The position numbers were made by a program, and so were the translations under genes. The notes under the pieces are model-generated. The model saw only the letters and a list, made by a program, of their open reading frames with translations, had not been told where the DNA came from and ran no database searches. 64,000 nucleotides of DNA. It comes from Verrucomicrobiota bacterium. GTDB lineage: Bacteria > Verrucomicrobiota > Verrucomicrobiia > Limisphaerales > UBA1319. Location of the stretch: contig JAKLHY010000012.1 of assembly GCA_022709905.1 (NCBI GenBank), forward strand, positions 62,001 through 126,000. Direction: 5' to 3'. This document shows positions 43,476 to 59,205 of this stretch, one piece after another. Every line of letters begins with the position of its first letter. Position 1 is the stretch's first letter.

Positions 43476-44534
43476 TTACATCGCCAGGTCGTCCAGCGGG
43501 CTCGGCACACCCTGTCCGCCCAGCTTCAACACGTGGGTGTAAATCATCGTCGTGGAAACATCCTCGTGCCCCAACAACGCCTGGATCGTCCGAATATCGG
43601 TCCCCCGCTGCAATAGATGCGTGGCAAAACTATGACGAAAAGTGTGGCTACTCACACGCTTGTTGATCCCCGCTTTGGTTGCGGCAATCTTGATCGCCTT
43701 ATTGATGGTCGCCTCATCCAAGTGATGTCGTCGCTGAACACCACTCCGTGGATCGACCGAGATGCTGCGAGCGGGAAATACATACTGCCAGCCCCATTCC
43801 TTTGCCGCATTAGGATACTTCCTCTCCAGGGCTCCTGGTAAAAACACACAGCCATAACCATTGGCTAAATCATTTTCGTGCAATATTTTAACACTATTCA
43901 AATGCTCCCGAAGCGGAGACACCAGATTCGCTGCCATCACCGTATACCGATCCTTGCATCCTTTCCCGTCGCGAACCGTGATCTGCCTCATATCGAAATC
44001 CAAGTCCTTAACACGCATTCGCAGACACTCCATTAGCCTTAAGCCACTGCCATATAATAGTTTAACGGCTATTTGAGGCGTGTCATTCATCACGCCAATG
44101 ATCCGTTTGACTTCCTCAATGCCCAACACAACCGGGATTCGCGGTAAACGACTCGATCGGACCGCCTGGACCTTATCCAGCGACTGATGTAACACTTCCC
44201 GATAGAGAAACAATAGGGCATTAAAAGCCTGGTTTTGGGTAGATACAGCCACATTACCCTTTACCGATAAATGGCTTAGAAATGATTCAACTTTGGGCGA
44301 GCCATTGTCCAGTTCAACCCGCGTCTTCATCTGGTGGAAATGAATGTATCTCCGAATCCAATCACAATAGGAACGTTCGGTTCGTAAGGAATAATGCTTG
44401 TATCTCATCACCTCACGCACTTGATCCAGTATCTTGGCTTTGGGATTAGGAATGATGGTCTCCCGAGTGGCGATGCGGCTCTCTTTTCCCAGCCTCGGAT
44501 CGTAATTAGGTTGACTCAAATACTCCTGTTTCAT
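43476..44534 (-). CDS. intI: Integron integrase (IntI-type tyrosine recombinase)
   Basis: 352 residues. The catalytic set is complete: Arg166 ([14 protein letters not shown]), Lys near 191-194 (GKGCKDR), His297 and Arg300 ([14 protein letters not shown]), His323 ([10 protein letters not shown]) and Tyr332 (IYTHV). Residues about 235-262 ([20 protein letters not shown]) form the extra helix region that separates integron integrases from XerC/D. It cuts folded attC bottom strands and inserts cassettes at attI. It is transcribed away from the main cassette array, the usual layout. Its promoter region carries two identical palindromes. Confidence 0.95.
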
Positions 44535-44559
44535 TAGATTATCCTATATATGTAACACT

Positions 44560-44573
44560 AGGAAAGTTTTCCT
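44560..44573. promoter_or_regulatory. Palindrome AGGAAAGTTTTCCT, copy 1 (possible operator)
   Basis: A 14-bp palindrome with six paired bases per arm (AGGAAA/TTTCCT). It lies 26 nt upstream of the intI ATG, where a repressor would block RNA polymerase. TATATA occurs between it and the start (about 44545-44551), a possible -10 for intI. The identity of the binding protein is unknown. Confidence 0.55.
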
Positions 44574-44599
44574 CGTTTGTCGACTAATATCAAAATAGC

Positions 44600-44613
44600 A
44601 GGAAAGTTTTCCT
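44600..44613. promoter_or_regulatory. Palindrome AGGAAAGTTTTCCT, copy 2 (possible operator)
   Basis: An exact second copy, 40 bp from the first and 12 bp from the attI-like core. The spacing of about four helical turns places both copies on the same DNA face. It could serve cooperative repression of intI or control access to attI. Confidence 0.55.
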
Positions 44614-44625
44614 AGTAATTAAATT

Positions 44626-44632
44626 GTTCGGC
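44626..44632 (+). other. attI core recombination site
   Basis: GTTCGGC is the first core site after intI, 92 nt from its start codon. It is the reverse complement of the GCCGAAC that opens attC 1, as expected for the boundary of the first cassette. The point of recombination would be between G44626 and T44627. The rest of attI (integrase-binding repeats) cannot be defined by eye. Confidence 0.75.
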
Positions 44633-44684
44633 GGCACCAATTGCTCGTGACGATTCTCATCCAGAACCCTCAAACTAGAAAACT

Positions 44685-45026
44685 ATGAACAAAGTCATTC
44701 ACGGCCTCATCGCGGCGTTCTTCGCCTTCGCTTGCTGGTGCTTGTGGGGTATGCTGACGCTCATCTCGAACGTCATGCTTCGGGTGTCCGACCATCCACC
44801 GGCGTTTACCCAGCTTTGTGTCGGGCTGCGTCCGCTGTTTGTTGTGCTGCCAATCGTGGCGGCTGCCTACTGCCTTTATGTTTGGATTCGGAAGACAGAC
44901 ATCCGACGTTCCTGGGTGCCATTCTTCGCCGCTACGATGGGCAGTCTGGTGTTGGTCATGCTGCCGACGATGGTTGCTGTCTGGCTTCCAGTGATTCAGT
45001 TCATCGAGCTGACAGGAAAGAAGTAG
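44685..45026 (+). CDS. Cassette 1: small membrane protein
   Basis: 113 residues with three predicted membrane helices (LIAAFFAFACWCLWGMLTLI, LFVVLPIVAAAYCLYVWI, FFAATMGSLVLVMLPTMVAVWL). I do not recognise a family. It is the attI-proximal and so probably most recently inserted and best expressed cassette. The start lies 53 nt after the core site. Confidence 0.7.
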   Translation: MNKVIHGLIAAFFAFACWCLWGMLTLISNVMLRVSDHPPAFTQLCVGLRPLFVVLPIVAAAYCLYVWIRKTDIRRSWVPFFAATMGSLVLVMLPTMVAVWLPVIQFIELTGKK

Positions 45027-45036: not shown

Positions 45037-45132
45037 GCCGAACAAAATCACTGGAGCGAACGCGGGCGGGCCACGTCAGTTGCCGATGCGGACGCGCTGG
45101 GCCGCCCGCGTCGCTCAGTTCGGTCGTTCGGC
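45037..45132 (+). repeat. attC 1
   Basis: 96 bp from GCCGAAC to GTTCGGC. The inner arms GCGGGCGGGCC and GGCCGCCCGC pair. The opening core is complementary to this cassette's own start (44626). It resembles attC 17. Confidence 0.88.
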
Positions 45133-45185
45133 GTAGCACGGCATCGACCTGCCAATCCGACACACTCAGCACCATCTCACGCAAT

Positions 45186-45395
45186 ATGAAGATGACACCT
45201 GACACCCCAGACTCTGAGATCGCGTCTCAACTCCGAATGATCCAGCAGCAACAGCAAGACCTCGAGAAGATCGAGCAAGTGGCTCATTCACCGTGGAAGC
45301 TGTGCTTCGGGGTCTTGGAGGCACTGTGTCGCGAGTGTTTGCGCCTGCGTGGAGAGGTCGCCGAGTTGCGTGCCGTCCGGCAGAACACGAAGTAG
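45186..45395 (+). CDS. Cassette 2: small helical protein
   Basis: 69 residues, MKMTPDTPDSEIASQLRMIQ onward, with a QQQQQDLEKIEQ segment and a C-terminal LRLRGEVAELRAV heptad pattern that suggests coiled coils. No signal or membrane segment. No known family is recognised. It fits the cassette window (core 45126, attC 2 at 45417) with its start 54 nt after the core. Confidence 0.55.
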   Translation: MKMTPDTPDSEIASQLRMIQQQQQDLEKIEQVAHSPWKLCFGVLEALCRECLRLRGEVAELRAVRQNTK

Positions 45396-45416
45396 TAGTT
45401 GGCAAAGCACGGGATC

Positions 45417-45543
45417 GCCGAACCAGTCGCGCCAGGCAACCGCCGCCATGTGTCTCGGATTGGATCGGTCTCGGTAATATGAAGATTCATGTTTCAAGTC
45501 GGGAGCGCGCTGACGGCGGCGGCGCCTGCTCTCAGCGTTCGGT
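45417..45543 (+). repeat. attC 2
   Basis: 127 bp from GCCGAAC to GTTCGGT. The arms CCAGGCAACCGCCGCCA and GGCGGCGGCGCCTG pair. The opening core matches this cassette's start (GTTCGGC at 45126). Confidence 0.85.
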
Positions 45544-45549
45544 GAAACC

Positions 45550-46014
45550 ATGAACAAGTGGCAGATCATATGTCCTCTTGTCGCCATCGCGATCGTGGCA
45601 GTCGTGTTTGCGATGGTCAGCGGGAGGAATCATCATTGTTACTACGTGTATGCTCAGACACGGATGATCGGCCAGGAATTGATCACGGCCACGAACTCAA
45701 CACGGCTGGTTCAGATTGGTAGCGGTTTCCGGAAGCGGCTCTCGGAGTTCCTTGTCTCTCCTGCTGGAGTTGCGGAGGTGGAGTTGGGTGATGAGCCCTC
45801 GCCGATTGGAGACGGGACTGCATGTAGCCGAGTCATTGTGTCCAATGCTACCGGAGGGCGTTTGGGCATGCGGTTGCGGCAGGATGCGGAGCCGGAGAGA
45901 TTTCATGTTTTGGGTTTTTGGACCATCACCGAACCAGACGGTCCAGCGAATCGGAGCCAGCCGACTCGCGCCGAGACAAATCGAACGTCAGTGGCGGCTG
46001 GCTCCGATCGCTGA
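45550..46014 (+). CDS. Cassette 3: membrane-anchored protein with attC-encoded tail
   Basis: 154 residues. One N-terminal membrane helix (IICPLVAIAIVAVVFAMVSG) precedes a soluble domain of about 90 residues that I do not recognise. No stop occurs before attC 3, so the last 28 residues (PANRSQPTRAETNRTSVAAG-type tail) are encoded by the recombination site. The ATG is 7 nt after the core. Confidence 0.65.
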   Translation: MNKWQIICPLVAIAIVAVVFAMVSGRNHHCYYVYAQTRMIGQELITATNSTRLVQIGSGFRKRLSEFLVSPAGVAEVELGDEPSPIGDGTACSRVIVSNATGGRLGMRLRQDAEPERFHVLGFWTITEPDGPANRSQPTRAETNRTSVAAGSDR

Positions 46015-46028
46015 CCTTTGCGTTAGCC
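45928..46028 (+). repeat. attC 3
   Basis: 101 bp from ACCGAAC to GTTAGCC. The opening core matches the unusual start GTTCGGT of its own cassette (45537). The arms GGAGCCAGCC and GGCTGGCTCC pair. Same subfamily as attC 7, 18, 20 and b. Confidence 0.92.
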
Positions 46029-46050
46029 AAAAAGAACGGAGCACCCAAAA

Positions 46051-46566
46051 ATGAGATTCAATATTAAAAAGACTGACCTAAAAGGCATGGGAATTTATGC
46101 AAAAGAGAGCATCTCTGCTTATGATGTCATCTCGAAAATTAGATACATCCGGGAGGTGACACGCGACACTCCACTTTTAGAAAGCGAAAAACACCTACAG
46201 GATCATATCCATTACTGGCCTGATGGTAGAATGTTTATTGTTGATGAGCCTGACACTTATTTTAACCACTCTTGCGAGCCTAATGCGTACATCTATTCAG
46301 CTAATAAGGAGTACTATATCATAGCAAAGGCAGATATAAAAAGTGGAGATGAAATAACAGTTGATTATGAGATACATACAACGGGTGGAGATTCCTCGTG
46401 GGAGTGCAAATGCGGTGCACGTAACTGTCGCGGATTGCATAGATGGGATTTCTTCTTATTACCTCCAAAAGTGATCCTGAATTCCTTGCCTTTTTTAGAT
46501 CCATGGTTCGCTCAAGTTCATGGAGAAAAAATCCGGGAGATTCTAAAGCAAGAATTGAAAGGCTAA
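46051..46566 (+). CDS. Cassette 4: SET-domain protein (putative lysine methyltransferase)
   Basis: 171 residues. The SET core is complete: KGMGIYAKESI (11-21), FNHSCEPNAY (71-80) for SAM and substrate binding, and GDEITVDYEI (99-108). The post-SET cysteines CKCGARNCRG (119-128) would bind Zn with the NHSC Cys. Eukaryotic relatives methylate histone lysines; bacterial ones act on a few known proteins. Its low GC compared with its neighbours points to transfer from another genome. The stop overlaps attC 4. Confidence 0.85.
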   Translation: MRFNIKKTDLKGMGIYAKESISAYDVISKIRYIREVTRDTPLLESEKHLQDHIHYWPDGRMFIVDEPDTYFNHSCEPNAYIYSANKEYYIIAKADIKSGDEITVDYEIHTTGGDSSWECKCGARNCRGLHRWDFFLLPPKVILNSLPFLDPWFAQVHGEKIREILKQELKG

Positions 46567-46621
46567 CAAGGGCATGCAGGCCGACGCGGCATAGCCGCGC
46601 GGCTGATGCCTGTCGTTAGGC
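46561..46621 (+). repeat. attC 4 (short type)
   Basis: 61 bp from GGCTAAC to GTTAGGC with the compact arms GCATGCAGGCCGACGCGGC and GCCGCGCGGCTGATGC. It is much shorter than its neighbours. The opening core matches the cassette start GTTAGCC (46022). Confidence 0.92.
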
Positions 46622-46635
46622 CACATCACCCGTCT

Positions 46636-46971
46636 ATGCCAGCCAACCCAAGCGAAATCAAAAAGCGCGAAGCTGCAGCGCGAGCCGCAATCAAGAAAGC
46701 ATACGGCACTGCCGACGGTGAGGACGGTCCTACACTCTTTGTGTCGCACCATTTGGAGGAGTTGGATGCCGCCTTTTGGAAGCAGCACTTCTCCACCGAG
46801 AGGCCAGACCCACAGCGCATCCTTGATGGATTGGTGCTTCGCTCTCATTGGGGCGGGGACGATGAGATTGACACCTTTGATTTTACTCTGCCCGACGAGG
46901 CCACGCAGTATGTCATCAGCGTCGCGTTCGACGAGGACGGCGTCGTTGCTGGCATTGCGATGGAGAGTTGA
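46636..46971 (+). CDS. Cassette 5: DUF2004-like protein
   Basis: 111 residues from MPANPSEIKKREAAARAAIK. FVSHHLEELDAAFW, VLRSHWGGDDEIDTFDFTLP and YVISVAFDEDGVVAGIAMES resemble DUF2004 proteins, some of which occur as immunity-like proteins near polymorphic toxins. The frame extends into attC 4 (46606), but the ATG after the core is preferred. No cognate toxin is present. Confidence 0.65.
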   Translation: MPANPSEIKKREAAARAAIKKAYGTADGEDGPTLFVSHHLEELDAAFWKQHFSTERPDPQRILDGLVLRSHWGGDDEIDTFDFTLPDEATQYVISVAFDEDGVVAGIAMES

Positions 46972-46988
46972 TGAGTTATGACATTGTG

Positions 46989-47081
46989 GCCTAACCATGC
47001 GCTGCAGCGAACCCGGCTTGAGCGCTTCAGTTGCAATCCACCCGTCTGGAGAGCCGGGTCGCTGAGCTTGGGTCGTTAGCC
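46989..47081 (+). repeat. attC 5
   Basis: 93 bp from GCCTAAC to GTTAGCC. The arms GCTGCAGCGAACCCGGC and GCCGGGTCGCTGAGC pair. It is nearly identical to attC 9 outside the variable loop. The opening core matches the cassette start GTTAGGC (46615). Confidence 0.93.
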
Positions 47082-47091
47082 GCTTCGCGAT

Positions 47092-47625
47092 ATGCACGTG
47101 AAACTCTTCACCTCCAAGGGGCCGTTGACCGGCTTCCACGGAAATGTGAGTGTTAAACGTGGAAAGCGCGGCAGTCCGGATTTTATCACGATGGTTCCAA
47201 TTCGGAGTTTGGAGCAGGAGATTGAGTATTGGCTGGCTCAGAACCCGGCGATTGAGATTCACGAGATTCGCCAGTCGGTAGCATCGGGATGGTTTGGGCG
47301 GTTGCAGTGCGTTGTGACCATCTGGTATGACTTGCCCAAGGTCATGCTCACGCGAGAGGCAGCAGAGAAGCTGGTCTTGGAGCAAGTGACCGGGCCGCTG
47401 AACCGTGACACGATATGCATTACGGAGGTGCTTGAGCGCCCCTTCGGTTGGGTGTTTTACTACAATTCCAAACGCTTTGTGCAGACCGGAGACGACAAGC
47501 ATGCGATGTGTGGTAATTATCCCATCCTTGTCGACCGGCACAATTGCACGCTTCATTCGACCGGGCTGGGAAAGATTGAGGATTACATAGAGCGATATGA
47601 GAAGACAGGACAGACAAGCGGCTAA
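47092..47625 (+). CDS. Cassette 6: Imm35-type immunity-like protein
   Basis: 177 residues. The C-terminal 65 residues (RPFGWVFYYNSKRFVQTGDD, YPILVDRHNCTLHSTG, EDYIERYE) match the Imm35 domain of bacterial immunity proteins. The N-terminal half (FTSKGPLTGFHGNVSVKRGK, EYWLAQNPAIEIHEI) is a second small domain of unknown type. No toxin gene accompanies it, so it may protect against toxins of competitors. The stop codon overlaps the attC 6 core. Confidence 0.7.
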   Translation: MHVKLFTSKGPLTGFHGNVSVKRGKRGSPDFITMVPIRSLEQEIEYWLAQNPAIEIHEIRQSVASGWFGRLQCVVTIWYDLPKVMLTREAAEKLVLEQVTGPLNRDTICITEVLERPFGWVFYYNSKRFVQTGDDKHAMCGNYPILVDRHNCTLHSTGLGKIEDYIERYEKTGQTSG

Positions 47626-47718
47626 CCAGATCACTGCACACAACGCCGGATGGCGCCTTCAGTTCCGCTTCGCGGGCAGCGTCTTTTGGTCCGGCGTGTG
47701 TGAGTTCCATCGTTCGAT
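47620..47718 (+). repeat. attC 6
   Basis: 99 bp from GGCTAAC to GTTCGAT. The arms CACACAACGCCGGA and TCCGGCGTGTGTG pair. The opening core matches the cassette start GTTAGCC (47075). Confidence 0.9.
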
Positions 47719-47721
47719 GCA

Positions 47722-48399
47722 ATGAAAGTGACGCGGCATAAGTTTATGGGAGTCGTTGTCTTGGTCATACTTATCGGGATGCCTTTCAGCAACACCGTTC
47801 GCACTCTGCGCGAAGATCGAAAGTATTCTGGTTACAACGCTCGTCCTTCCAAGATAATCTATTCCGGCGTCAGATTTGATTGCCGTATGATTACAGAACC
47901 TGGTGATTGCCCAGTTCCCGGCGTTTTGACCGCTTTAATGGTGATTGACCTTCCATTCTCCGTTTGTGCCGACACCATTTGTCTTCCGTATACGATCTAC
48001 CGTCGATTAACAGAAAGCGGGAGAGTGTGGCGAGTGGTTGACGTGGTCTTTGCGTCAAACGGTGTCCGCCTTATTTCACTGAACAAAACCGAAGAGCGTG
48101 ATGCGTCAACACTAGCTGAGACATGTTCAGTATTGCAGCGCATCACTGGCAAGCCACGATCCGTAAGAGTGAACGTGACTGCGGAAAACACGGTGTCCAT
48201 CGCAGATTACGGAATCCTCTACGAGACGATTCAGTCAAACACAACTCTCACGCTGGCTTACCAATCTGATGGCATAACGCGACTGTCTCAGCAGTATCTA
48301 AAAGAAAAGACATCGAACAAGAGCGGTGCAGCGAACGGGAGCCAGCCGATTCGCTCAGAGACAAAGTCAACATCATCGGCGGCTGGCTCCCGTCGCTGA
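47722..48399 (+). CDS. Cassette 7: YceK-like membrane protein with attC-encoded tail
   Basis: 225 residues. An N-terminal hydrophobic helix is followed by YSGVRFDCRM and ALMVIDLPFSVCADTICLPY, the pattern of the YceK/YidQ lipoprotein family, though no lipobox Cys is present. The remaining 110 residues are unassigned. The frame runs into attC 7, ending AANGSQPIRSETKSTSSAAG plus SRR. The ATG lies 3 nt after the core. Confidence 0.65.
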   Translation: MKVTRHKFMGVVVLVILIGMPFSNTVRTLREDRKYSGYNARPSKIIYSGVRFDCRMITEPGDCPVPGVLTALMVIDLPFSVCADTICLPYTIYRRLTESGRVWRVVDVVFASNGVRLISLNKTEERDASTLAETCSVLQRITGKPRSVRVNVTAENTVSIADYGILYETIQSNTTLTLAYQSDGITRLSQQYLKEKTSNKSGAANGSQPIRSETKSTSSAAGSRR

Positions 48400-48413
48400 C
48401 CTTTGCGTTCGAC
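48312..48413 (+). repeat. attC 7
   Basis: 102 bp from ATCGAAC to GTTCGAC. The opening core matches the cassette start GTTCGAT (47712), a rare variant. The arms GGGAGCCAGCC and GGCTGGCTCCC pair. Confidence 0.92.
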
Positions 48414-48457
48414 GCTGTCCTTAAATGGGGCTACCACGTTCCCTTACATTGATGACC

Positions 48458-48958
48458 ATGAAGACCCGCATTACCATACTTAGCATCCTGGCGTTGATCG
48501 CCACTATTCACACCGGCCTCGCCTTTTCGCTCGATGGCTTTGTGCCATTTGATACTCGCCGTGATGCGATTGAGGGAACGCGCAAGTTTCTGACGCATTT
48601 TACTAACGGTGGTATCGAGAAGGCATGCGAGGTGGTGTGGGACAAGGACATCCAGATCCGTCGGGAGATGATTACCAATTACGACAAGCTGCGTCCCTAT
48701 CTACCCAAGATAGGCAAGAGGACGGCGGAGCATTTCATTGGCGCCAACACTCTCGGAGATTTCTGGGTCGAGCTCGGCTACATTGAGGTGTTTCAGGAGG
48801 CTGTGATGTTTGTTCGAATCAGCTTTGCTCGTCCGACAGGAACCAAATGGTATGTGAAAGATATCAACTACACGATCAAAGCGGACTTGTCGAAGCTACT
48901 TGATGAGATACCTGGAGAGTACAAGCGATTTGTCCCATCAGAGCGAGACCTTCCATAG
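48458..48958 (+). CDS. Cassette 8: exported protein of unknown function
   Basis: About 166 residues from MKTRITILSILALIATIHTG, a clear signal peptide with a cut probably after GLA. The mature part (RDAIEGTRKFLTHFTNGGIE, WYVKDINYTIKADL) could be an NTF2-like fold, but I do not recognise a family. The frame is open to 48425; the chosen Met begins the signal peptide. Confidence 0.65.
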   Translation: MKTRITILSILALIATIHTGLAFSLDGFVPFDTRRDAIEGTRKFLTHFTNGGIEKACEVVWDKDIQIRREMITNYDKLRPYLPKIGKRTAEHFIGANTLGDFWVELGYIEVFQEAVMFVRISFARPTGTKWYVKDINYTIKADLSKLLDEIPGEYKRFVPSERDLP

Positions 48959-49007
48959 TGTGCAGGCAGCGATTTAATCGCATGATTTCACTCGTGAACG
49001 AGTTCTG

Positions 49008-49097
49008 GTCGAACAATCGGCTCCACCCAACCGCTCCTGGCGCCCCACTTCGGGGCCAGCGTCACGAGGTCGCGGTGGGTGAGCCGGGTCGTTAGGC
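49008..49097 (+). repeat. attC 8
   Basis: 90 bp from GTCGAAC to GTTAGGC. The opening core matches the cassette start GTTCGAC (48407). The arms CGGCTCCACCCAACCGC and GCGGTGGGTGAGCCG pair imperfectly. Confidence 0.88.
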
Positions 49098-49146
49098 CGC
49101 TTCACGCGCGCGTCGCGGCAAACAACAAATCAACGGAAGGAATTCA

Positions 49147-49539
49147 ATGAGCATCTGGAAAAAATAATTTGGAGGTGGCGAAGAATCGCCACCGTCCGAC
49201 CTCACTACCGATGTCAGCAAAAAATACGGCATCGTCACTAGTGGTAGTCAATTCGCCTTTCAGGGTGCGTACGAAGATAGTATGCAATCAACGCTTTCCA
49301 CACCGGAGGTGTGCGCTGCCCAGACAAACCAACTAAAAACGGTCGAGGAGGTTTGCATCCTGATGACAGACCCGGTTCTTATTATTCTCGGGAGTCTCGA
49401 AAGGAAGCCGCTTGCTATCCGCACCTCACTTCCTGCGTCGCGCGCCGAAGAGTTCGTGGACGCTTTGAAGCCAGCCGGAGTCAGGATTTTTGCATCTGGG
49501 AAAGTCTGTCTGGCCAAACTGAATCGGCAGAGCGTTTGA
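49147..49539 (+). pseudogene. Cassette 9: gene interrupted by an in-frame ochre stop
   Basis: The frame begins MSIWKK, meets TAA at 49165, and continues without a further stop: FGGGEESPPSDLTTDVSKKY, then 100 more residues to 49539. MSIWKK-x-FGGG with Leu at the gap is how the intact start would read (TTA to TAA), so a single base change has broken the gene. Internal reinitiation at 49282 would give 85 residues. The function is unknown. Confidence 0.65.
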
Positions 49540-49557
49540 TTACATCATGACAACGCG

Positions 49558-49650
49558 GCCTAACCATGCGCTGCAGCGAACCCGGCGGGAGCGTCGCGGT
49601 TGCCATCGTTGCCTCCCGTGCGCCGGGTCGCTGAGCTTGGGTCGTTAGCC
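49558..49650 (+). repeat. attC 9
   Basis: 93 bp from GCCTAAC to GTTAGCC, matching the cassette start GTTAGGC (49091). Same arms and length as attC 5. Confidence 0.93.
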
Positions 49651-49655
49651 CGAGT

Positions 49656-50081
49656 ATGGAATGGTTCGCCGATGATATACGCCGGGGGCAGATCGCGCTG
49701 ACCACTATTGCCCTCGTCCTAACGGCTGCTGGCATTTGGCTGGGGCGAAGGAGATTGTCTGTGGCAGTTCCAGTTGCATTGGCTTTCTTGCTTCTGGCGG
49801 CCATCGCGATTCCGAGCGCCATCCCTGCAAGACTAACCGCTCAACGAAATGCCTGCATCTACAACCTGCGGACGATTCAAAGCGCGAAGATCGAATGGGC
49901 GAGGGAGCACAACAAGCTGGCTGGAGACATTCCTACTGACGCCGACATTTGCGGCACAAACGGCATCGCTGGGATTCTCCGCCACCGCCTTACCTGCCCA
50001 GGTGGCGGCATCTACACAATGGGAGCCGTCGGTCAGAGTCCGACGTGCAGCCTTTCAAACAAAGGACACCGATTGGAATGA
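49656..50081 (+). CDS. Cassette 10: membrane protein with pseudopilin-type C-terminal domain
   Basis: 141 residues. Two N-terminal membrane helices (ALTTIALVLTAAGIWLG, VAVPVALAFLLLAAIAIPSA) precede QRNACIYNLRTIQSAKIEWA and LTCPGGGIYTMGAVGQSPTC, a small Cys-stabilised domain common in verrucomicrobial pseudopilins. No G/FTLIE prepilin site is present, so it is a membrane relative rather than a pilin. The ATG is 5 nt after the core. Confidence 0.68.
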   Translation: MEWFADDIRRGQIALTTIALVLTAAGIWLGRRRLSVAVPVALAFLLLAAIAIPSAIPARLTAQRNACIYNLRTIQSAKIEWAREHNKLAGDIPTDADICGTNGIAGILRHRLTCPGGGIYTMGAVGQSPTCSLSNKGHRLE

Positions 50082-50094
50082 CAACCGAAACAGG

Positions 50095-50187
50095 GGCTAA
50101 CAAGCCGGATGCAGTGAACCCCGCGATCGCGTCGCGGTTGCATTCCGGTGGTCACTGGCGCGGGGTCACTGATCCGGAGCGTTCGGC
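50095..50187 (+). repeat. attC 10
   Basis: 93 bp from GGCTAAC to GTTCGGC, matching the cassette start GTTAGCC (49644). The arms GTGAACCCCGCG and CGCGGGGTCAC pair. Confidence 0.92.
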
Positions 50188-50193
50188 TAAGCT

Positions 50194-50697
50194 ATGAAAG
50201 CCTGCTCACTTGCTATTCTGCTAGTGCTTCTCTCGCTCACGTCCTGCGTCGATCGCCCGTATTCGGAGGCGGAGTTGAGTTCGCTCTTCATTGGATCTTG
50301 GAACAGTTCGAGCTCGTTTGAGACAAACGCGGCGGACACCCATATCATCATGCAGTCACAGGGGAGGACGACTTTTAGAAATGATGGGACGATAACATCC
50401 GAGACCGATACCCTCATGAGGATTAAGGTGCCGGAAGGCGAGGTGCCTGTAGCATACCATGCCGTTGTCCACGGAAATTGGTCGATCGACGGCCAGATGC
50501 TCCGCACATCCCGGACCTCAGAAGAAATCAACCCGAAGGACGAAGTCTCTCAGAAATTCATAGAGCGTGAGGGAATGAGTAAGCTCCGGTCGCAGAGCCC
50601 AACCAACTTCGTGTATACCCTCAGGCACATATCTGCTCAGAAGATTGTAGCCTTGGATGCTCAAGGGACACGAACTACTTACAGACGAGACGAATGA
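50194..50697 (+). CDS. Cassette 11: lipoprotein of unknown function
   Basis: 167 residues. MKACSLAILLVLLSLTSC is a lipoprotein signal with lipobox LTSC, so the mature protein is lipid-anchored at Cys18. The mature domain (SLFIGSWNSSSSFETN, GRTTFRNDGTITSETDT, VVHGNWSIDGQMLR) looks like a lipocalin-type beta-barrel. The ATG lies 6 nt after the core. Confidence 0.72.
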   Translation: MKACSLAILLVLLSLTSCVDRPYSEAELSSLFIGSWNSSSSFETNAADTHIIMQSQGRTTFRNDGTITSETDTLMRIKVPEGEVPVAYHAVVHGNWSIDGQMLRTSRTSEEINPKDEVSQKFIEREGMSKLRSQSPTNFVYTLRHISAQKIVALDAQGTRTTYRRDE

Positions 50698-50734
50698 GCA
50701 TTGATACCCTGTTGCCTCGTTCTCAACACTGGGA

Positions 50735-50827
50735 GCCGAACCAGGCGCATTCACTGGACGGCGCGGAGCGCGAGTGTTTACATTTCGGGCATCACAGGCG
50801 CGCCGCCAGTGATGCACGTCGTTCGGC
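50735..50827 (+). repeat. attC 11
   Basis: 93 bp from GCCGAAC to GTTCGGC, matching the cassette start (50181). The arms GCATTCACTGGACGGCGCG and CGCGCCGCCAGTGATGC pair. Confidence 0.9.
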
Positions 50828-50838
50828 GGCATCGCACA

Positions 50839-51228
50839 TTGCAGGATTTTGACACCATAAACATCAAAGACCTCACTGAACAACAAACACAGGCACTGCT
50901 GGATTTGGCAATGCTTGCCATGTATGCGGACGGCCATCTTGCATCCGCCGAGGATGAGCGGATTCACCGTTTGCTCACCGCGATGGGTTTTGCCACGGAC
51001 TACGACTGCAGCAAACACTACGACGCCTCCATTGGGCGCATCAGCCGGCACTCGCAAACCGCTGCCGCCGCGCGCACGCACACCGCCACGCTGGCGCAGA
51101 GTTTCACGACGCGGGACCAGCGGCGACGCGTTCTCGATGTGCTGGATGACCTGACCTCCAGCGATAGGAGTGTCGCTCCGCAAGAGAGCAGCTACCTCGC
51201 AATCGTCCGGGAAGTGTTTCAGAGGTGA
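50839..51228 (+). CDS. Cassette 12: TerB-like protein
   Basis: About 130 residues. LTEQQTQALLDLAMLAMYAD, SAEDERIHRLLTAMGF and LDDLTSSDRSVAPQESSYLA match the all-helical TerB tellurite-resistance fold with its acidic metal-binding loops. The frame is open back to 50701 through attC 11. No ATG follows the core before the domain, so TTG at 50839 is my choice; ATG at 50812 inside attC is an alternative. Confidence 0.68.
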   Translation: MQDFDTINIKDLTEQQTQALLDLAMLAMYADGHLASAEDERIHRLLTAMGFATDYDCSKHYDASIGRISRHSQTAAAARTHTATLAQSFTTRDQRRRVLDVLDDLTSSDRSVAPQESSYLAIVREVFQR

Positions 51229-51238
51229 CCATGAGATC

Positions 51239-51328
51239 GCCGAACCCGGCTGCACCGAACGCCGGGATCGCGTCTCGGTTAACAGTCGGACATCGTTGGC
51301 CCGGCGTCGGTGAGCCGGAGCGTTCGCC
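51239..51328 (+). repeat. attC 12
   Basis: 90 bp from GCCGAAC to GTTCGCC, matching the cassette start (50821). The arms GGCTGCACCGAACGCCGGG and CCCGGCGTCGGTGAGCC pair. Nearly identical to attC 19 and 22. Confidence 0.92.
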
Positions 51329-51333
51329 GTGAC

Positions 51334-51807
51334 ATGAGCGCGCTTGCCTATCGTTCCAGCTCTGACAACGGCCTGTCGTTCGACTTGCTCGTGGACGGTG
51401 TCGCTTTGGGAGAGGTGCTGGGCGACGGCAACGAGGGCATCCCATATTGGATAGTCGAAGATGATCTGCCGCATTGGCCACCACACGGCACTCCCCGCGA
51501 TCCGGAATACAGGATCGTGACGGTCTGTTCCTGCGGAGAGTATGGATGTGGACACACTCGCTGTCGCGTGATCAAGACCGCCGACACGGTTGCGTTGCGC
51601 GACTTCGCTGGAGATGTCGGTGCTGATGGAGCGGCACGGGTTTTCACGTTCTCGCGATCGGGCTACGAGCAAGTCGTCAGCGAGATTGTTGCAGAGGCTC
51701 GACATCAGAAAGAGACCAACGGCGAACAAAGCGCTCCACCGAATGGCGGCCCCGCCACGCCAGTTGAGAATTCGAGGCTCACCGAGGGGCCGCCATCGGT
51801 GAGCTAA
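51334..51807 (+). CDS. Cassette 13: unknown protein with CxCxxxxC motif
   Basis: About 157 residues. LSFDLLVDGVALGEVLGDGN and PYWIVEDDLPHWPPHGTPRD are followed by VCSCGEYGCGHTRCRV, a Cys/His cluster that probably binds metal. I recognise this pattern from many bacterial hypotheticals but no function. The last 28 residues are encoded inside attC 13. The ATG is 5 nt after the core. Confidence 0.65.
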   Translation: MSALAYRSSSDNGLSFDLLVDGVALGEVLGDGNEGIPYWIVEDDLPHWPPHGTPRDPEYRIVTVCSCGEYGCGHTRCRVIKTADTVALRDFAGDVGADGAARVFTFSRSGYEQVVSEIVAEARHQKETNGEQSAPPNGGPATPVENSRLTEGPPSVS

Positions 51808-51817
51808 ATCGTTAGAC
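51721..51817 (+). repeat. attC 13
   Basis: 97 bp from GGCGAAC to GTTAGAC, matching the cassette start GTTCGCC (51322). The arms GCTCCACCGAATGGCGGCCCC and GGGGCCGCCATCGGTGAGC pair. Confidence 0.9.
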
Positions 51818-51824
51818 TCACACC

Positions 51825-52184
51825 ATGAGGACTGCGATAATTATCGGCCTGCTGTTGATAGTAGCATACTTCATTTTTGTGCCGGCGTTGGCTCGGTCAG
51901 GTTGGCGAGCAGTTGCCGTGAATGCGAAGGCGACGTTGCATTCAACATATGTTGCCGTTCAGAAAGGCGGAGTTTACACCAACGATTGGACCGTGCGTTT
52001 CCATGTTCGCCCATACACCAATCGTTACGTAATTGGTGGGGAAGTCTATCAGTGCGTGATGGCCGTTGATTCTTGGGATTACCAGGGTCGTAGCAATCTG
52101 CTTGCCATAACGATCGAAGAGAGGTTTCTGTATATCGACCAGCGTGGAGCGGTTCCCGTGAGCCATCTGCCGCCTGGATATTGA
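51825..52184 (+). CDS. Cassette 14: small membrane-anchored protein
   Basis: 119 residues. One N-terminal helix (AIIIGLLLIVAYFIFVPALA) is followed by a beta-rich soluble part (VYTNDWTVRFHVRPYTNRYV, LLAITIEERFLYID). No family is recognised. The ATG is 8 nt after the core GTTAGAC. Confidence 0.65.
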   Translation: MRTAIIIGLLLIVAYFIFVPALARSGWRAVAVNAKATLHSTYVAVQKGGVYTNDWTVRFHVRPYTNRYVIGGEVYQCVMAVDSWDYQGRSNLLAITIEERFLYIDQRGAVPVSHLPPGY

Positions 52185-52199
52185 GTTCATGAGACACGC

Positions 52200-52325
52200 G
52201 CCTAACCCGTCGCTCCACACGAACCGCCGCCCAGCGCTTCGGTTTCGGGGTGCCGTGATGCTCGGACGCTGGATTCGCTGCCAGCGCCCGGTTCCGGCGG
52301 CGGTCGATGAGCTGGTGCGTTCGGC
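52200..52325 (+). repeat. attC 14
   Basis: 126 bp from GCCTAAC to GTTCGGC. The opening core differs by one base from the reverse complement of the cassette start (GTTAGAC). The arms GAACCGCCGCCCAGCGC and GCGCCCGGTTCCGGCGG pair. Confidence 0.85.
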
Positions 52326-52653
52326 GTGAGTTGTCGCGGGTGTTGACGGGCGAGGTTTTCGGTGTTGTTCTTTCTCTGCGTTCTTTGCGTTCTTTGTGGC
52401 CAGAGATTTTTGCCGCAAGAGATCGCATAGAGCGCAGAGAGCCGGAGTTGGGAGCGCGGTGATCAGGCCGGTCGTCGCCGCGAGTTCCGAGAGTGAGTTG
52501 ACCGGAGAGTTTGGAATTTATGAACCTTTTATCGCCGAACCAGGTCACTTCACCGAACTGCCGCCAAGCGTTGCAGTTCGGATGCGCCGGATTCTTCAGA
52601 CGCTGCATTCGCTGGCAGCGCCCGTCCCTGGCGGCAGTCGGTGAGTTCTGTCG
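52320..52653 (+). other. Cassette 15: apparently geneless cassette
   Basis: 334 bp between two core sites with no convincing ORF; the longest plus frame (82 codons) runs mostly inside attC 15. The front part has a T-rich direct repeat (CTGCGTTCTTTGCGTTCTTTGTGGCC at about 52376) of the kind scattered in verrucomicrobial intergenic DNA. It could carry a promoter, a small RNA or a dead gene. Confidence 0.6.
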
Positions 52654-52659
52654 TTGGGA
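52534..52659 (+). repeat. attC 15
   Basis: 126 bp from GCCGAAC to GTTGGGA, matching the cassette start (52319). The arms ACTTCACCGAACTGCCGCCA and TGGCGGCAGTCGGTGAGT pair. Confidence 0.9.
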
Positions 52660-52678
52660 GTAACGGCAGACGCGTTCT

Positions 52679-52903
52679 ATGGCCAAACGAAAGCGCAAAC
52701 TTACGCCCGCAGAAAAGAGAGCGCGACGAAAGCGTCGAGAGGAGTTCATGATGATTTTCGTCAACGGCAAGCAGAAGCGCGTGAGGCGTCCGCCGACAGT
52801 GGATGGTATGGATGTTGACGAGTTCATCAGAGAGAACGCCGATCCGATTTGGCTTCATCAAAACGGTCTGTGGGAGTATATGAGCGAGGCCAATGAACGT
52901 TGA
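52679..52903 (+). CDS. Cassette 16: small basic protein
   Basis: 74 residues, MAKRKRKLTPAEKRARRKRR then EEFMMIFVNGKQKRVRRPPTV. The strongly basic N-terminus suggests nucleic-acid binding; the C-terminus (DVDEFIRENADPIWLHQNGL) is acidic. No family is recognised. The stop is followed 4 nt later by attC 16. Confidence 0.62.
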   Translation: MAKRKRKLTPAEKRARRKRREEFMMIFVNGKQKRVRRPPTVDGMDVDEFIRENADPIWLHQNGLWEYMSEANER

Positions 52904-52906
52904 AAC

Positions 52907-53032
52907 TCCCAACAAGCGGGTGGAGACGAACCACCGCCCCGCGCTTCCGTTCGAGGCTGGGCGGGAATTCGGGAGTGCCCCGTGCGCTCCAGCGCTCCTG
53001 TCGGCGGCGGTCGCTCACCCTTTTCGTTAACC
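52907..53032 (+). repeat. attC 16
   Basis: 126 bp from TCCCAAC to GTTAACC, matching the unusual cassette start GTTGGGA (52653). The arms GTGGAGACGAACCACCGCC and GGCGGCGGTCGCTCAC pair. Confidence 0.92.
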
Positions 53033-53045
53033 CGCAGACTCCACT

Positions 53046-53348
53046 ATGAAACGAATCGCTATTCTCTTGGCTCTCGTGGTCCTGTCTGGGTGCAGCAGAC
53101 GCACCAAGATTGAGCCCGCAGATGTGAGTACAGACGACAGGGACGCAATGGTTGCCGCTGTTTACCAAACGGGCATACGAACGAACGGCCTGAGCGTTTA
53201 CTATGTGGAGAGGTTTACCCGCGGGAGAGACAGTTGGCTCCACGTGCAGTTCACAGACGCCAAGGAGACAAATGCTGCGATTCGTCCGGTGTTCGATCTG
53301 GTGAAGACACCTGGCGGCTGGAAAGTCGTGGACAAAAGAGATGAGTAG
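53046..53348 (+). CDS. Cassette 17: small lipoprotein
   Basis: 100 residues. MKRIAILLALVVLSGCSRRT is a lipoprotein signal with lipobox LSGC (Cys16). The mature part (DRDAMVAAVYQTGIRTNGLS, FDLVKTPGGWKVVDKRDE) is short and its ending resembles NTF2-like folds. The function is unknown. Confidence 0.7.
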   Translation: MKRIAILLALVVLSGCSRRTKIEPADVSTDDRDAMVAAVYQTGIRTNGLSVYYVERFTRGRDSWLHVQFTDAKETNAAIRPVFDLVKTPGGWKVVDKRDE

Positions 53349-53360
53349 CAAACAAGCATG

Positions 53361-53456
53361 GGCTAACCAGATCACTGGACCGAAGGCGGGCGGGCCGCGT
53401 CAGTTGAATATTCGGACGTCGCTGACCGCCCGCGTCGGTCAGTTCTGTCGTTGGCC
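53361..53456 (+). repeat. attC 17
   Basis: 96 bp from GGCTAAC to GTTGGCC. The opening core is one base off the complement of GTTAACC (53026). The arms GGCGGGCGGGCCGCGTCAG and GACCGCCCGCGTCGGTCAG are of the attC 1 type. Confidence 0.87.
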
Positions 53457-53475
53457 GAAACAGCACGCATGACTC

Positions 53476-53922
53476 ATGCCCAAGCGTCCCCGCATTCATG
53501 ACAAGCGATTGATCGGCACATGGCGGTCTGATCGGCGACGGACGATGGCGGAGTGGGTCTCCGTACGGCGTTTGACCGAACGGCGGCGCAAGAAGCTCTC
53601 GGACATCTTCGGGCATTTGACACTGCGATTCACTCGGTCGCGTCTCCATTCAGAGTTCAAGGGGACTCGTGACACCCAGGAGTACGCCGTACTGGCCTCC
53701 GATTCCGATTCGGTCTCGATTGTGCATTGGGATGGCCTCCTGAAGGAGCGGCGCATTCAGCATCTCCACTTTGAGGGACGGCACTACTGGATCACGCTTG
53801 GACGCAATCGGGAGTTCTTCAGGAAGCAGAGATCGGCCAACCAGACGGTCCAGCGAACGGGAGCCAGCCGTTCAGCCCAGGACAACAATCGAGCGTCATT
53901 GGCGGCTGGCTCCCGTCGCTGA
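53476..53922 (+). CDS. Cassette 18: unknown soluble protein with attC-encoded tail
   Basis: 148 residues. MPKRPRIHDKRLIGTWRSDR, LTLRFTRSRLHSEFKGTRDT and VSIVHWDGLLKERRIQHLHF suggest a beta-barrel of lipocalin-like type (GTWRSD start) without an export signal. The last 28 residues (TVQRTGASRSAQDNNRASLA plus AGSRR) come from attC 18. The family is not recognised. Confidence 0.62.
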   Translation: MPKRPRIHDKRLIGTWRSDRRRTMAEWVSVRRLTERRRKKLSDIFGHLTLRFTRSRLHSEFKGTRDTQEYAVLASDSDSVSIVHWDGLLKERRIQHLHFEGRHYWITLGRNREFFRKQRSANQTVQRTGASRSAQDNNRASLAAGSRR

Positions 53923-53936
53923 CCTTTACGTTGGCC
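53835..53936 (+). repeat. attC 18
   Basis: 102 bp from GGCCAAC to GTTGGCC, matching the cassette start (53450). The arms GGGAGCCAGCC and GGCTGGCTCCC pair. Confidence 0.92.
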
Positions 53937-53998
53937 GGAAGAATGTGCGAGCGTCTGTGAAGAACTCGATGACAGTATCAAGTGAGAATCACGTCCTG

Positions 53999-54589
53999 AT
54001 GCGCACCGGTCATAAATGGCTCCTCGTCGGTTTGATCAGCGCCCTCTTGACGGGATGCGTTTCTGAAAGGGGACGGAACGCAATCAATGAGCGGACCGAT
54101 TCGAGGAGCAATGAAGTTATGAAACCACCTGACATAGTGCGTCGCGAAGGCTTTCTGGTGATGGGCACGGTGACCCGTAGGCAACCCGGGACCGAGCGTC
54201 CGGAGACGTTCGTATCGGCCTGGAACGAGTTTGAGACGCACCGACAGCGTGTCCAGCGCCACAGCGTGAATTCGAAGTACTATGGCGTCAGCTTTGCGGC
54301 TGGTGCGGATGGGAGCTTTGACTACCTGACTGGCATGGCTGTTGGGCCGGGTGTGGAGACGCCCGAAGGTCTGGAAGTCCGCGCGGTGCCGGCGGCGACC
54401 TATGCCGTGTTCACCTGTCCTGTCCAATCGATCGGACAGACGTATCGGTACATCTTTGGCGAGTGGCGGGCGAAATCCGGTTACACGACTGACGACGCGA
54501 CCCCTGCCTTTGAGGAGTATCCGCCCGCGACGGACACGAATGCCCCCGTGCTCCTTCACATTCCGATCCGGGAGGATCACGCTAAGTGA
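53999..54589 (+). CDS. Cassette 19: lipoprotein with GyrI-like effector-binding domain
   Basis: About 196 residues from MRTGHKWLLVGLISALLTGC, a lipoprotein signal with lipobox LTGC. The mature part (FVSAWNEFETHRQRVQRHSV, YLTGMAVGPGVETPEGLEVR, YAVFTCPVQSIGQTYRYIFG) matches the SOUL/GyrI-like small-molecule-binding domain found in AraC-type regulators, here exported. ATG at 53969 is an alternative start; the frame is also open back through attC 18. Confidence 0.7.
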   Translation: MRTGHKWLLVGLISALLTGCVSERGRNAINERTDSRSNEVMKPPDIVRREGFLVMGTVTRRQPGTERPETFVSAWNEFETHRQRVQRHSVNSKYYGVSFAAGADGSFDYLTGMAVGPGVETPEGLEVRAVPAATYAVFTCPVQSIGQTYRYIFGEWRAKSGYTTDDATPAFEEYPPATDTNAPVLLHIPIREDHAK

Positions 54590-54594
54590 AAAAC

Positions 54595-54686
54595 GGCCAA
54601 CCATCGGCTGCACCGAACGCCGGGATCGCGCTCCGGTCAACAATCGAGCATCATCGGCCCGGCGTCGGTGAGCCGGGACGTTGTCT
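54595..54686 (+). repeat. attC 19
   Basis: 92 bp from GGCCAAC to GTTGTCT, matching the cassette start GTTGGCC (53930). Arms as in attC 12 and 22. Confidence 0.92.
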
Positions 54687-54689
54687 TGA

Positions 54690-55499
54690 ATGAGAGTGCG
54701 ACGCATCCATGTTCTCGTCGTGTTTCTGGCGCTGGCGGCCTGCTTGATCCCCTTTCGTACGAAGGTCAGGTCTGCGGCGGTGAGCGCGATTCAAGTTCTG
54801 AAAGGCAAGAAGAGTGTTGCGGAACGTGTCACAGAATTCGGCGATGCCGTTCACAAGCGCGTGGCAGCACGGTTTAAGGAAGTCGGGGTTGCCTACCCGC
54901 CGAAGCGGATCAACCTCGTTGGCCTCAAGCGGGAGCAAGTGCTTGAGGTGTGGGTGTCCGGTGGAAGCGGTCAGTGTGAGTATTTGACGACATACCCGAT
55001 TCTTGGAGCAAGCGGCACGTTGGGGCCCAAACTGGTCGAAGGAGATGGCCAGGTCCCTGAGGGTGTTTACAAGATCGACTCCCTCAATCCAAACAGCCTG
55101 TATCACTTGGCTCTCCGCGTGGACTATCCAAACCGCTTTGACAGGGCGAAAGGCGCATTGGATGGCCGGGCTGCTCTGGGCTCCGATATCATGATTCACG
55201 GGAAATCCGCCTCGATCGGTTGTCTTGCCATGGGTGATCAGGCTGCCGAGGATCTGTTTGTGATGGCCGCCGAGTCGGGTATTGAAAACATTACGGTGAT
55301 CCTGAGCCCAGTGGATTTCAGAATCCGAAGCTTGCCAGCAACCATGCCGAAGGTCCCGCCCTGGACCGAGGAACTGTACGCGGATATCAGGTGCGAGTTG
55401 ATGAAATTGACAAGACAACCAGACGGTGCAGCGAATCGGAGCCAGCCGAGTCGCTCAGAGACAAATCGAACGTCATCGGCGGCTGGCTCCCGTCGCTGA
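54690..55499 (+). CDS. Cassette 20: YkuD-type L,D-transpeptidase with attC-encoded tail
   Basis: 269 residues. A signal or anchor helix ([18 protein letters not shown]) precedes the catalytic motif [17 protein letters not shown], with His170, Ser175 and nucleophile Cys178, as in ErfK/YkuD murein L,D-transpeptidases or related carboxypeptidases. The usual arginine after SxGC is replaced (CLAM), as in the YafK branch. The last 28 residues lie in attC 20. The ATG is 3 nt after the core GTTGTCT. Confidence 0.82.
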
Positions 55500-55513
55500 C
55501 CTTTGCGTTGGGC
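55413..55513 (+). repeat. attC 20
   Basis: 101 bp from AGACAAC to GTTGGGC. The opening core matches the rare cassette start GTTGTCT (54680). Arms of the attC 3 type. Confidence 0.93.
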
Positions 55514-55522
55514 TCAAACACC

Positions 55523-56428
55523 GTGACTCCGTCCCGTCAACACGTCGCCGCGAGGGCTTCGGTCTCGCCCGGAGAGGCGGATTCGAAACCAGGTTCCTGC
55601 GGTTTCACGTTGATTGAGTTGCTGGTAGTGATAGCGATCATCGCGCTTCTTGCTGCGTTGTTGCTCCCAGCACTAGCTCGTGCCAGGTCAACGGCTCAGT
55701 CTGCTGTCTGCAAGAGCAACTTGAGACAGCTCGGTCTGGCGTTGAATCTCTACGTCGATGACTACCGGGCATATCCTGGAGGACCGCCTTATTTCGGGGG
55801 CATTACTCTCGATGGACCTGGAGCAGCATCAGAACGGGCCTTGTTATACTTGGCACCCTTCGTCTCGGCTGACATCGTCTCCACAGGTCCAGGTGGCAAG
55901 ATCGAGGGGCTGATGTTCGATGTGAGCACAACGGTCTTTCATTGTCCCGCCAAGCCCACAGAGACTCTGCTCCCTTCTGGTGTTGGGACGGTCGCAGTCT
56001 CAGCAAACGGTGCCAGCGACGGGTCGCAGAGCGTCCCAGCTCATTGGAATCGTCGAGTGCGTCCCTATGGCTACGGTTACATTGGGCTAGGCACACTGCA
56101 GCGCCCTGGGGCCGCCGCTTCGCTCGGGTTAGGACCGGTTTTAGTGGAAGAGATTGCCGTTCCTGTCAGAGGGAGCAACATCCGATCGGCGAGCGGCATG
56201 ATCGCGATAGCAGATTCGGTGGGCCGCAATCTCGGTCACATTCATCCCTATTCCTGGCCGCATGGCAATCGGCCCGAGACTATCGCAAGCCTTCACAACG
56301 CTGGGGCAAACGTTGTCTTCTGTGACGGCCACGTAGAGCACGACCAACAAAGCCACTGGCTAGCACCATCGGAAGCGGTTCGGAGGCGTTGGAACAACGA
56401 TCATGAGCCGCACCCAGAAACCTGGTAG
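55523..56428 (+). CDS. Cassette 21: prepilin-like protein
   Basis: About 301 residues from GTG at 55523, 9 nt after the core. A leader of about 27 residues ends at [20 protein letters not shown], the prepilin peptidase site and hydrophobic helix, followed by [20 protein letters not shown]. The C-terminal [13 protein letters not shown] is the H-x9-DG-type motif. It is of the same broad family as the two chromosomal genes at 12101 and 13208 but clearly diverged. It is the longest cassette protein. Confidence 0.8.
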
Positions 56429-56434
56429 AGACGA

Positions 56435-56524
56435 GCCCAACCAGCCGTGCCACCCAACGCCGGTTGCGCGCTTTCGTGAATGCGGTTGCCACCGGCCCGG
56501 CGTGGGTGCACTCTGTCATTAGCC
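56435..56524 (+). repeat. attC 21
   Basis: 90 bp from GCCCAAC, matching the cassette start GTTGGGC (55507), to a variant core ATTAGCC. The G at the exchange point is replaced by A. The arms GTGCCACCCAACGCCGG and CCGGCCCGGCGTGGGTGCAC pair. Confidence 0.85.
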
Positions 56525-56550
56525 CACCATCACACGCGCACGACATCACT

Positions 56551-57063
56551 ATGAGCAAGACCAACTACTGGGATCAGATCGAAGAGGCGTTCGAGGCCGT
56601 TGACATTTACGAGACCTACGACGTGTTCATGCAGGGAGCAGCCAAGTATCCCGACTGGAAGATTGATATTCTGGCGGTGCATTGGACGATGAGCGAGACC
56701 GTGAACGGCGGGCTGGAGCAGTATTTCAGCAACAGTACGGGCATCCTCGCACCCGAGGCCGTCTTTGGTTTTCAGCGCATCGGCAGGCCGGAGTTGGCTG
56801 CGGCACTTCAGAAAGCGATGGCTTTGCTCGGCAAGCCGTATCCGCGAGAGCGCAAAGAGCGAGCGGCGCGGCTTGCAGCTTTGCGAGGCGGCGGAGAGGC
56901 GCAGCAGACGGAGGGTTTCTCGCTTGTTCCGAAATGGGTCGCCAAGAAGGTCGGCATGAAGTCAGCGCAGAGTCCCTTTGAGGAGATGGACGAGGTTCTT
57001 GGTGGCGCTGGTGATGATGTTGAAGAGGCGCTTGATGAGTATGCAGGCACGAAGGTGGGCTAA
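56551..57063 (+). CDS. Cassette 22: DUF4375 (DMP19-like) protein
   Basis: 170 residues from MSKTNYWDQIEEAFEAVDIY. HWTMSETVNGGLEQYFSNST followed by PEAVFGFQRIGRPELAAALQ is the core of DUF4375/DMP19, a family named for a DNA-mimic protein of Neisseria and common among immunity-like genes. The acidic C-terminus (EEMDEVLGGAGDDVEEALDE) fits DNA mimicry. The open frame extends upstream into attC 21; the chosen ATG is the first after the core. Confidence 0.78.
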   Translation: MSKTNYWDQIEEAFEAVDIYETYDVFMQGAAKYPDWKIDILAVHWTMSETVNGGLEQYFSNSTGILAPEAVFGFQRIGRPELAAALQKAMALLGKPYPRERKERAARLAALRGGGEAQQTEGFSLVPKWVAKKVGMKSAQSPFEEMDEVLGGAGDDVEEALDEYAGTKVG

Positions 57064-57150
57064 CAAACCGGCTTCACCGATCGCCGGGATCGCGCCTCGG
57101 TTGACAATCGGACATCGTTGGCCCGGCGTCGGTGAGCCGGGACGTTCGGC
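57058..57150 (+). repeat. attC 22
   Basis: 93 bp from GGCTAAC to GTTCGGC. The opening core is the complement of GTTAGCC, so the variant ATTAGCC at the cassette start is a mutated GTTAGCC. Arms as in attC 12 and 19. Confidence 0.92.
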
Positions 57151-57224
57151 GGGCAATCAAAAAGGGTAAGCTTGAGAACCATACACTATGCAAAATAGAA
57201 ATAACGTATTATGGAGTACCAAAG

Positions 57225-57608: not shown

Positions 57609-57616
57609 CAGAAAAA

Positions 57617-57698
57617 GGAATGTAGAGAACGCGGGAGGCCGGAGTGGGGAGGTGAATTAACCGTGGAGTTTATCGGCCTCCCGCGTTCTTTGCATTCC
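57617..57698. repeat. 82-bp inverted repeat next to the IS91 element
   Basis: GAACGCGGGAGGCCG (57627-57641) pairs perfectly with CGGCCTCCCGCGTTC (57674-57688), and the outer GGAATG/CATTCC extends the stem. It lies between cassette 23 and the transposase, in the gene-poor stretch 57609-57966. It may be the replication-origin end of the IS or an attC derivative; the core sequences of an attC are not present. Confidence 0.6.
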
Positions 57699-59196: not shown

Positions 59197-59205
59197 GGCC
59201 GGGGC

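Follow-up and report, generated by a model that had tools for sequence, protein, structure and literature searches.

The twin palindromes lying between the integrase gene (intI) and the crossover site of a Verrucomicrobiota integron are a conserved part of attI. They travel with one family of integron integrases (IntI) across several bacterial phyla, and thus probably provide the integrase with additional docking sites rather than acting as a generic host switch. Among the roles considered by the original prediction, that of accessory integrase sites fits best: the palindromes belong to a conserved attI block, are linked to one IntI lineage, occur in the genome only at attI sites and persist at attIs devoid of intI. 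We consider it fairly likely that the two dyads are accessory IntI-binding arms of attI, similar to the DR1 and DR2 repeats of attI1 but organized as inverted pairs, with IntI as the presumed ligand.

The features identified in the window (the whole analyzed stretch of DNA, 64,000 nucleotides) are listed in Table 1.

Table 1. Features of the integron and of its attI region. Positions refer to the window.
Feature	Position	Strand	Sequence, evidence or remarks
intI, integron integrase, 352 aa	43476-44534	-	TIGR02249, E 4.5e-134, 446.8 bits (cut-off 265)
Candidate cassette promoter Pc	44511-44540	+	TTGACT-N18-TAGATT; overlaps the intI 5' end; weak
Possible intI promoter PintI	44555-44583	-	-35 TCGACA (44583-44578), 17-bp spacer, -10 TAGTGT (44560-44555)
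attI block (dyad A, linker, dyad B, spacer, core)	44557-44632	+	About 75 bp; conserved in relatives
Dyad A	44560-44573		AGGAAAGTTTTCCT; as GGAA-N4-TTCC, conserved among relatives
Linker between the dyads	44574-44599	+	Conserved GTTTGTCNAC-AATATC element, AATATC at 44586-44591
Dyad B	44600-44613		AGGAAAGTTTTCCT; right arm about at the L-box position; 19.5 bp from its centre to the core G
attI core (R box)	44626-44632	+	GTTCGGC; from sequence, placed by analogy with GTTRRRY (PMC12901181)
Cassette array, about 16 attC-like sites	45037-60305	+	attC-like matches; repeat families D1-D7

The two copies are identical over 14 bp and start 40 bp apart, within an interval between intI and the attI core that had been correctly sized at about 92 bp. 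Their 6-bp arms, AGGAAA and TTTCCT, are complementary, whereas the central GT is not self-complementary, and each copy is more precisely a near-palindrome; dyad A, in an extended imperfect form, corresponds to ACTAGGAAAGTTTTCCTCGT (44557-44576). The proposed location on the same helical face holds only approximately, as 40 bp amount to 3.8 turns at 10.5 bp per turn. Towards intI, the repeated sequence keeps a fixed distance from the core, with dyads at about -19 and -59, and in relatives the repeat measures 40-43 bp. Allowing up to 2 mismatches, the motif produces 4 strand-wise matches in the window (the two sites, each read on both strands) vs. 0.32 expected, and none of the shuffles came to 4.

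The integrase gene scores above the TIGR02249 cut-off, as an integron-type integrase, and no other intI of its clade is present in the genome. The candidate Pc is the sole sigma70-like match found by scanning positions 44400-44720 (9 of 12 positions, 0.6 expected in shuffles). PintI is absent from the calls of the same scan; it was recognized by eye in the window and in relatives, and the 17-bp spacer of this putative promoter contains dyad A; in five loci (window and four relatives), a distance of 21-29 nt separates dyad A from the start codon of intI. Crossover is expected after G44626. An attC array lies beside attI: 17 attC-like matches fall on the plus strand between 44.5 and 64 kb, the last of which (63793-63883) is doubtful, vs. 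1 between 1 and 40 kb. The detector fires on the opposite strand too, because attCs are near-palindromic. A strict attC pattern, restricted to GTTRRRY, returned no sites, as the attCs of this array use GTTCGGC, and a relaxed pattern was then used. At 57967-59771, the cassette region also includes a 409-aa reading frame, by eye similar to IS91-type transposases, adjoined by a tyrosine recombinase that is truncated (59286-59771) and stays below the TIGR02249 cut-off, with 102 bits.

The distribution of the motif was analyzed by pattern searches over the whole genome (8,168,781 bases, 8.17 Mb). The palindrome AGGAAANNTTTCCT is found at four places, corresponding to the window pair and to a second pair on contig C6, both with a 40-bp distance. 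The looser pattern AGGAANNNNTTCCT adds just two single sites, vs. 15 for a control pattern, and a 100-bp block used as query retrieves the same two attIs and nothing else. With only attIs and two single sites found, below the control count of 15, an operator belonging to a host regulon was rejected. Positions 8776-8905 of C6, a contig which could derive from a related strain (the contamination given for the genome is 5.27%), are 89% identical to window positions 44503-44632. The C6 attI has both palindromes, a GTTGGGC core and two attC-like sites downstream, and its intI is cut down to about the first 11 codons; its dyad A has a longer symmetry (ACTAGGAAAGTTTTCCTAGT). The intI remnant forms a fusion with an esterase-like reading frame (C6, 8776-9772). 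None of the 14 differences between the two copies falls within the 28 palindrome bases (P 0.027; 0.041 for non-coding positions only), a result that is no more than suggestive. In PLSDB plasmids, the attI block has no match, and all IntI matches among the best 5,000 records are less than 60% identical.

Many integron integrases are controlled by LexA (PMC3108266, PMC8946536), and in proteobacterial integrons with a LexA-controlled PintI a palindrome likewise lies between intI and attI, near the promoter. The palindromes could then be host-type LexA boxes, placing intI under SOS control. The host LexA box, CTGTTCAAATGAACAG, was located upstream of the lexA-dinB operon (contig C308). Its pattern TGTTC-N4-GAACA occurs at 10 places in the genome, the reversed control at 0, and no match with less than 2 mismatches is found near intI. 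The window motif is unlike this box, and also unlike the E. coli-type box, as originally noted; a LexA operator is thus ruled out by sequence, and SOS control through these palindromes has practically no probability.

Conservation was evaluated within the order of the host, for which we use the name Pedosphaerales and which holds 'Verrucomicrobia subdivision 3'. The nearest intI genes, 66-70% identical, are accompanied by the same arrangement written in other bases, e.g. GGAATCAATTCC and GGAATCGATTCC at locus L009; so is the second intI of genome G261 (L037). The dyad A plus linker pattern is found at 9 places, in 5 of the 320 genomes of the order. Dyad B is present at eight of them, and only in degraded form at the ninth (L177). 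The latter locus (G265:C96, 1-1704) holds two degraded tandem attIs separated by about 1.4 kb, and both retain a short remnant of the intI 5' end.

In the relatives, mean pairwise identity is 0.80 for dyad A and linker and 0.66 for the part including dyad B, vs. 0.53 for the 66 bp on the intI side, 0.50 for the 60 bp on the cassette side and 0.50 for shuffles. Conservation covers the block that starts at dyad A and ends with the core, and extends neither to the sequences near Pc and intI nor to the cassettes. The original prediction had been staked on conservation at related integrons, and such conservation is observed. In the alignment of the relatives' blocks, the columns of the GTTTGTCNAC-AATATC linker element are invariant or nearly so. 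Counted from the centre of the dyads, conservation falls on positions 3 to 6 of each half-site, GGAA and TTCC, around four freer bases. The MAFFT block alignment misplaces dyad B where rows contain 1-2 extra bases; pair counts were therefore made on centred dyads. The two halves co-vary, as 324 of 504 pairs are complementary vs. 226 (sd 9.6) when halves are exchanged between dyads, a difference somewhat inflated by the choice of the centre. Picking centres for symmetry within a few bp inflates pairing; at other offsets, an identical procedure gave a mean of 4.3 pairs out of 9, vs. 5.7 and 5.6 for the dyads (P 4e-8 and 5e-6).

Some attIs of this kind keep the dyads where the integrase gene is missing or damaged. 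Two attIs of genome G031 (L173 on C97, L178 on C632) have both dyads but lack an intI within 1.5 kb, and the search of the G031 genome revealed none close to that of the window, although most genomes are MAGs and a missing intI may reflect incompleteness. At one G261 attI, intI is broken. These sites bear on the proposal of a new operator for integrase control, by which a dimeric repressor, host-encoded or IntI itself, would bind the dyads and block PintI, and perhaps Pc. The location of dyad A in a plausible PintI spacer, close to the intI start codon, is in favour of it, and GGAA-N4-TTCC resembles in shape the site of a dimeric repressor. On the other hand, both dyads are kept at the attIs lacking intI, no other place in the genome has the motif, the position of dyad B is linked to that of the core, dyad sequence and number track the IntI lineage across phyla, and ten intI neighbourhoods, whose translations were judged by eye, have no regulator gene in common. 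Since intI-less attIs keep both dyads and no regulator is shared, control of intI is not supported as the primary role, and we regard it as unlikely; it may stand as a secondary role, given the position of dyad A, and autorepression by IntI is compatible with accessory integrase sites.

The arrangement extends beyond the order. IntIs with about 60% identity occur in Nitrospirota, Nitrospinota, Desulfocapsa and Gammaproteobacteria, and their attIs follow the same plan, with CAGG..CCTG-type dyads, as in L082 (CAGGGCAATTATACCTG and CAGGGCAAATAGACCTG, 41 bp apart). Four gammaproteobacterial attIs of the clade (L084, L091, L092 and L103) contain several dyads each; their best self-match offsets are 42-44, 70-72, 112-119 and 141-149, suggesting that spacings of about 42 and about 28 bp alternate. 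In a maximum-likelihood tree, from which short IntI fragments were excluded, all 15 clear twin-dyad attIs fall within a single IntI clade, which comprises 22 rows and has a support of 100/100, and the twin-dyad label, assigned like the cores partly by eye, changes 3 times on the tree vs. 13.7 in shuffles. Twin-dyad attIs are thus confined to one integrase lineage. The majority of the remaining Pedosphaerales IntIs group apart, in a clade with support 98/95, and have differently built attIs. The window integron is thus nearer to proteobacterial integrons than to the bulk of those from its own order. The palindromes follow the integrase rather than the host, because twin dyads are found in one cross-phylum IntI clade and other Pedosphaerales attIs differ.

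The 40-bp repeat is evident in the clade as a whole. Region B of the clade attIs shares 8.0 and 7.5 of 20 positions with the sequence 40 and 41 bp upstream, vs. 5.2 (sd 0.6) across offsets, with weaker self-match peaks at 28 and 69-70. The best match of region B falls in the 39-44 bin for 14 of 23 clade attIs, vs. 3.7 of 60 outside. A dyad 16.5-20.5 bp from the core is among the three best in 46 of 83 attIs of all lineages, a count including four misplaced cores, corrected for later analyses; shuffles gave 9.3 (sd 3.1, maximum 19). In some lineages, the dyad is nearer to 29 bp from the core. When symmetry was averaged at fixed offsets over all attIs, the signal was weak, because dyad centres vary by 1-3 bp; the per-site maximum was hence used. 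A dyad near the L box is therefore a frequent feature of attIs, given its excess over shuffles, and the 40-bp repeat is the mark of the clade, as the 39-44 bin is favoured inside it and not outside. Upstream of the attI core at L164 and L167, which belong to another IntI lineage, a second copy of the dyad ACCCAAAAATTGGG lies at a distance of 29 bp, on the upstream side, so that the pitch differs from that of the clade.

Slippage or duplication can create short repeats, and the pair might accordingly have arisen by chance or as a functionless local duplication. Against such an origin stand the 0.32 matches expected in the window, the genome copies limited to attIs at that stringency, the symmetry kept with other bases in relatives and the co-variation of the halves. 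The attI-only occurrence, the restriction to one IntI clade and the 40-bp repeat within the clade rule it out, and we consider it extremely improbable.

Differences between IntI lineages also bear on a further possibility, that the ligand of the dyads is a host protein of wide distribution, architectural or involved in recombination (IHF/HU-like or Xer-like), which would bend attI for synapsis. A bend could be located at the conserved AATATC element of the linker, and recombination at V. cholerae attIA requires the host factor RecA (PMC8191803). A shared host protein would not explain, however, why dyad sequence differs between IntI lineages inside one host order, nor does it account for a motif found in the genome at attIs only, and this role appears improbable.

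The closest known counterpart of the accessory sites proposed here is attI1, whose L, R, DR1 and DR2 sites are all bound by IntI1, with the repeats favouring recombination of the attI1 x attC type (PMC3518468, PMC12901181, PMC8191803). In both cases the accessory sequence lies tens of bp from the L/R core, on its intI side, and is specific for the cognate lineage; attI1 also contains a short dyad, GGGC-N4-GCCC, made of the L box (CCCTAAA, PMC12901181) and the bases preceding it. The attI1 repeats are two, directly oriented and confined to one integron class, whereas the dyads are inverted pairs, with a pitch of about 40 bp, found in a cross-phylum clade of chromosomal integrons; the direct orientation typical of attI1 is not observed here. 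Binding of IntI1 is proven (PMC3518468, PMC12901181), whereas the dyads are predicted IntI sites known from sequence. They would work like the DR1/DR2 pair without being its equivalent. V. cholerae attIA, which similarly belongs to a chromosomal integron and is flanked by intI and a long cassette array, has been reported to lack repeats (PMC8191803, PMC8946536). In attIs of other IntI lineages, mainly from Pedosphaerales, repeated boxes are also present upstream of the core, but they are directly oriented, GTTAGGC-like and not palindromic. TAGGC occurs upstream of the core 36 times in forward and 4 in reverse orientation in 60 attIs outside the clade (9.8 expected); within the twin-dyad clade, 2 forward and 1 reverse boxes were found. 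Accessory boxes in direct repeat may be common in chromosomal integrons.

We propose that each dyad is an inverted pair of half-sites (AGGAA-N4-TTCCT), on which the cognate IntI would dock beside the L/R crossover site. Dyad B is located about 19 bp from the crossover, its right arm approximately coinciding with the L box, and dyad A about four helical turns further out; together they may sustain a higher-order IntI-DNA complex, marking attI as the double-stranded partner and favouring attI x attC insertion, as DR1 and DR2 do at attI1. The same binding at dyad A could lower intI transcription, because dyad A overlaps the likely PintI spacer. Against docking of IntI, the half-sites are just 4 bp apart, which is tight for two tyrosine-recombinase protomers, and the AGGAA arms do not resemble the core box GTTRRRY beyond TAGG/CAGG; the ligand could be a widely conserved host DNA-binding protein. 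A broader proposal, put forward tentatively and with appreciable doubt, is that in a cross-phylum lineage attI is an array of inverted IntI dyads, with a pitch of about 40 bp, on which a multi-protomer complex would both select attI as the double-stranded partner and repress intI, independently of SOS, and that attIs devoid of intI are served in trans.

Recognition of attI is poorly known, and some attIs have accessory domains (PMC4792948). Accessory sequences have been described as absent from most attIs, and perhaps acquired on mobilisation, in replacement of host factors (PMC8191803). No description of palindromic arrays in attI was found in the literature compared; Nield 2001 and Elsaied 2011, on attI diversity, lie outside this comparison, and prior notice is possible. 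The finding matters in view of this reported absence from most attIs: chromosomal integrons of one clade conserve an accessory architecture specific to their lineage, and this argues against mobilisation as a general explanation. The dyad architecture provides a sequence handle for the annotation of attIs, those lacking intI included, and makes it testable beyond class 1 what accessory sites contribute to attI x attC insertion.
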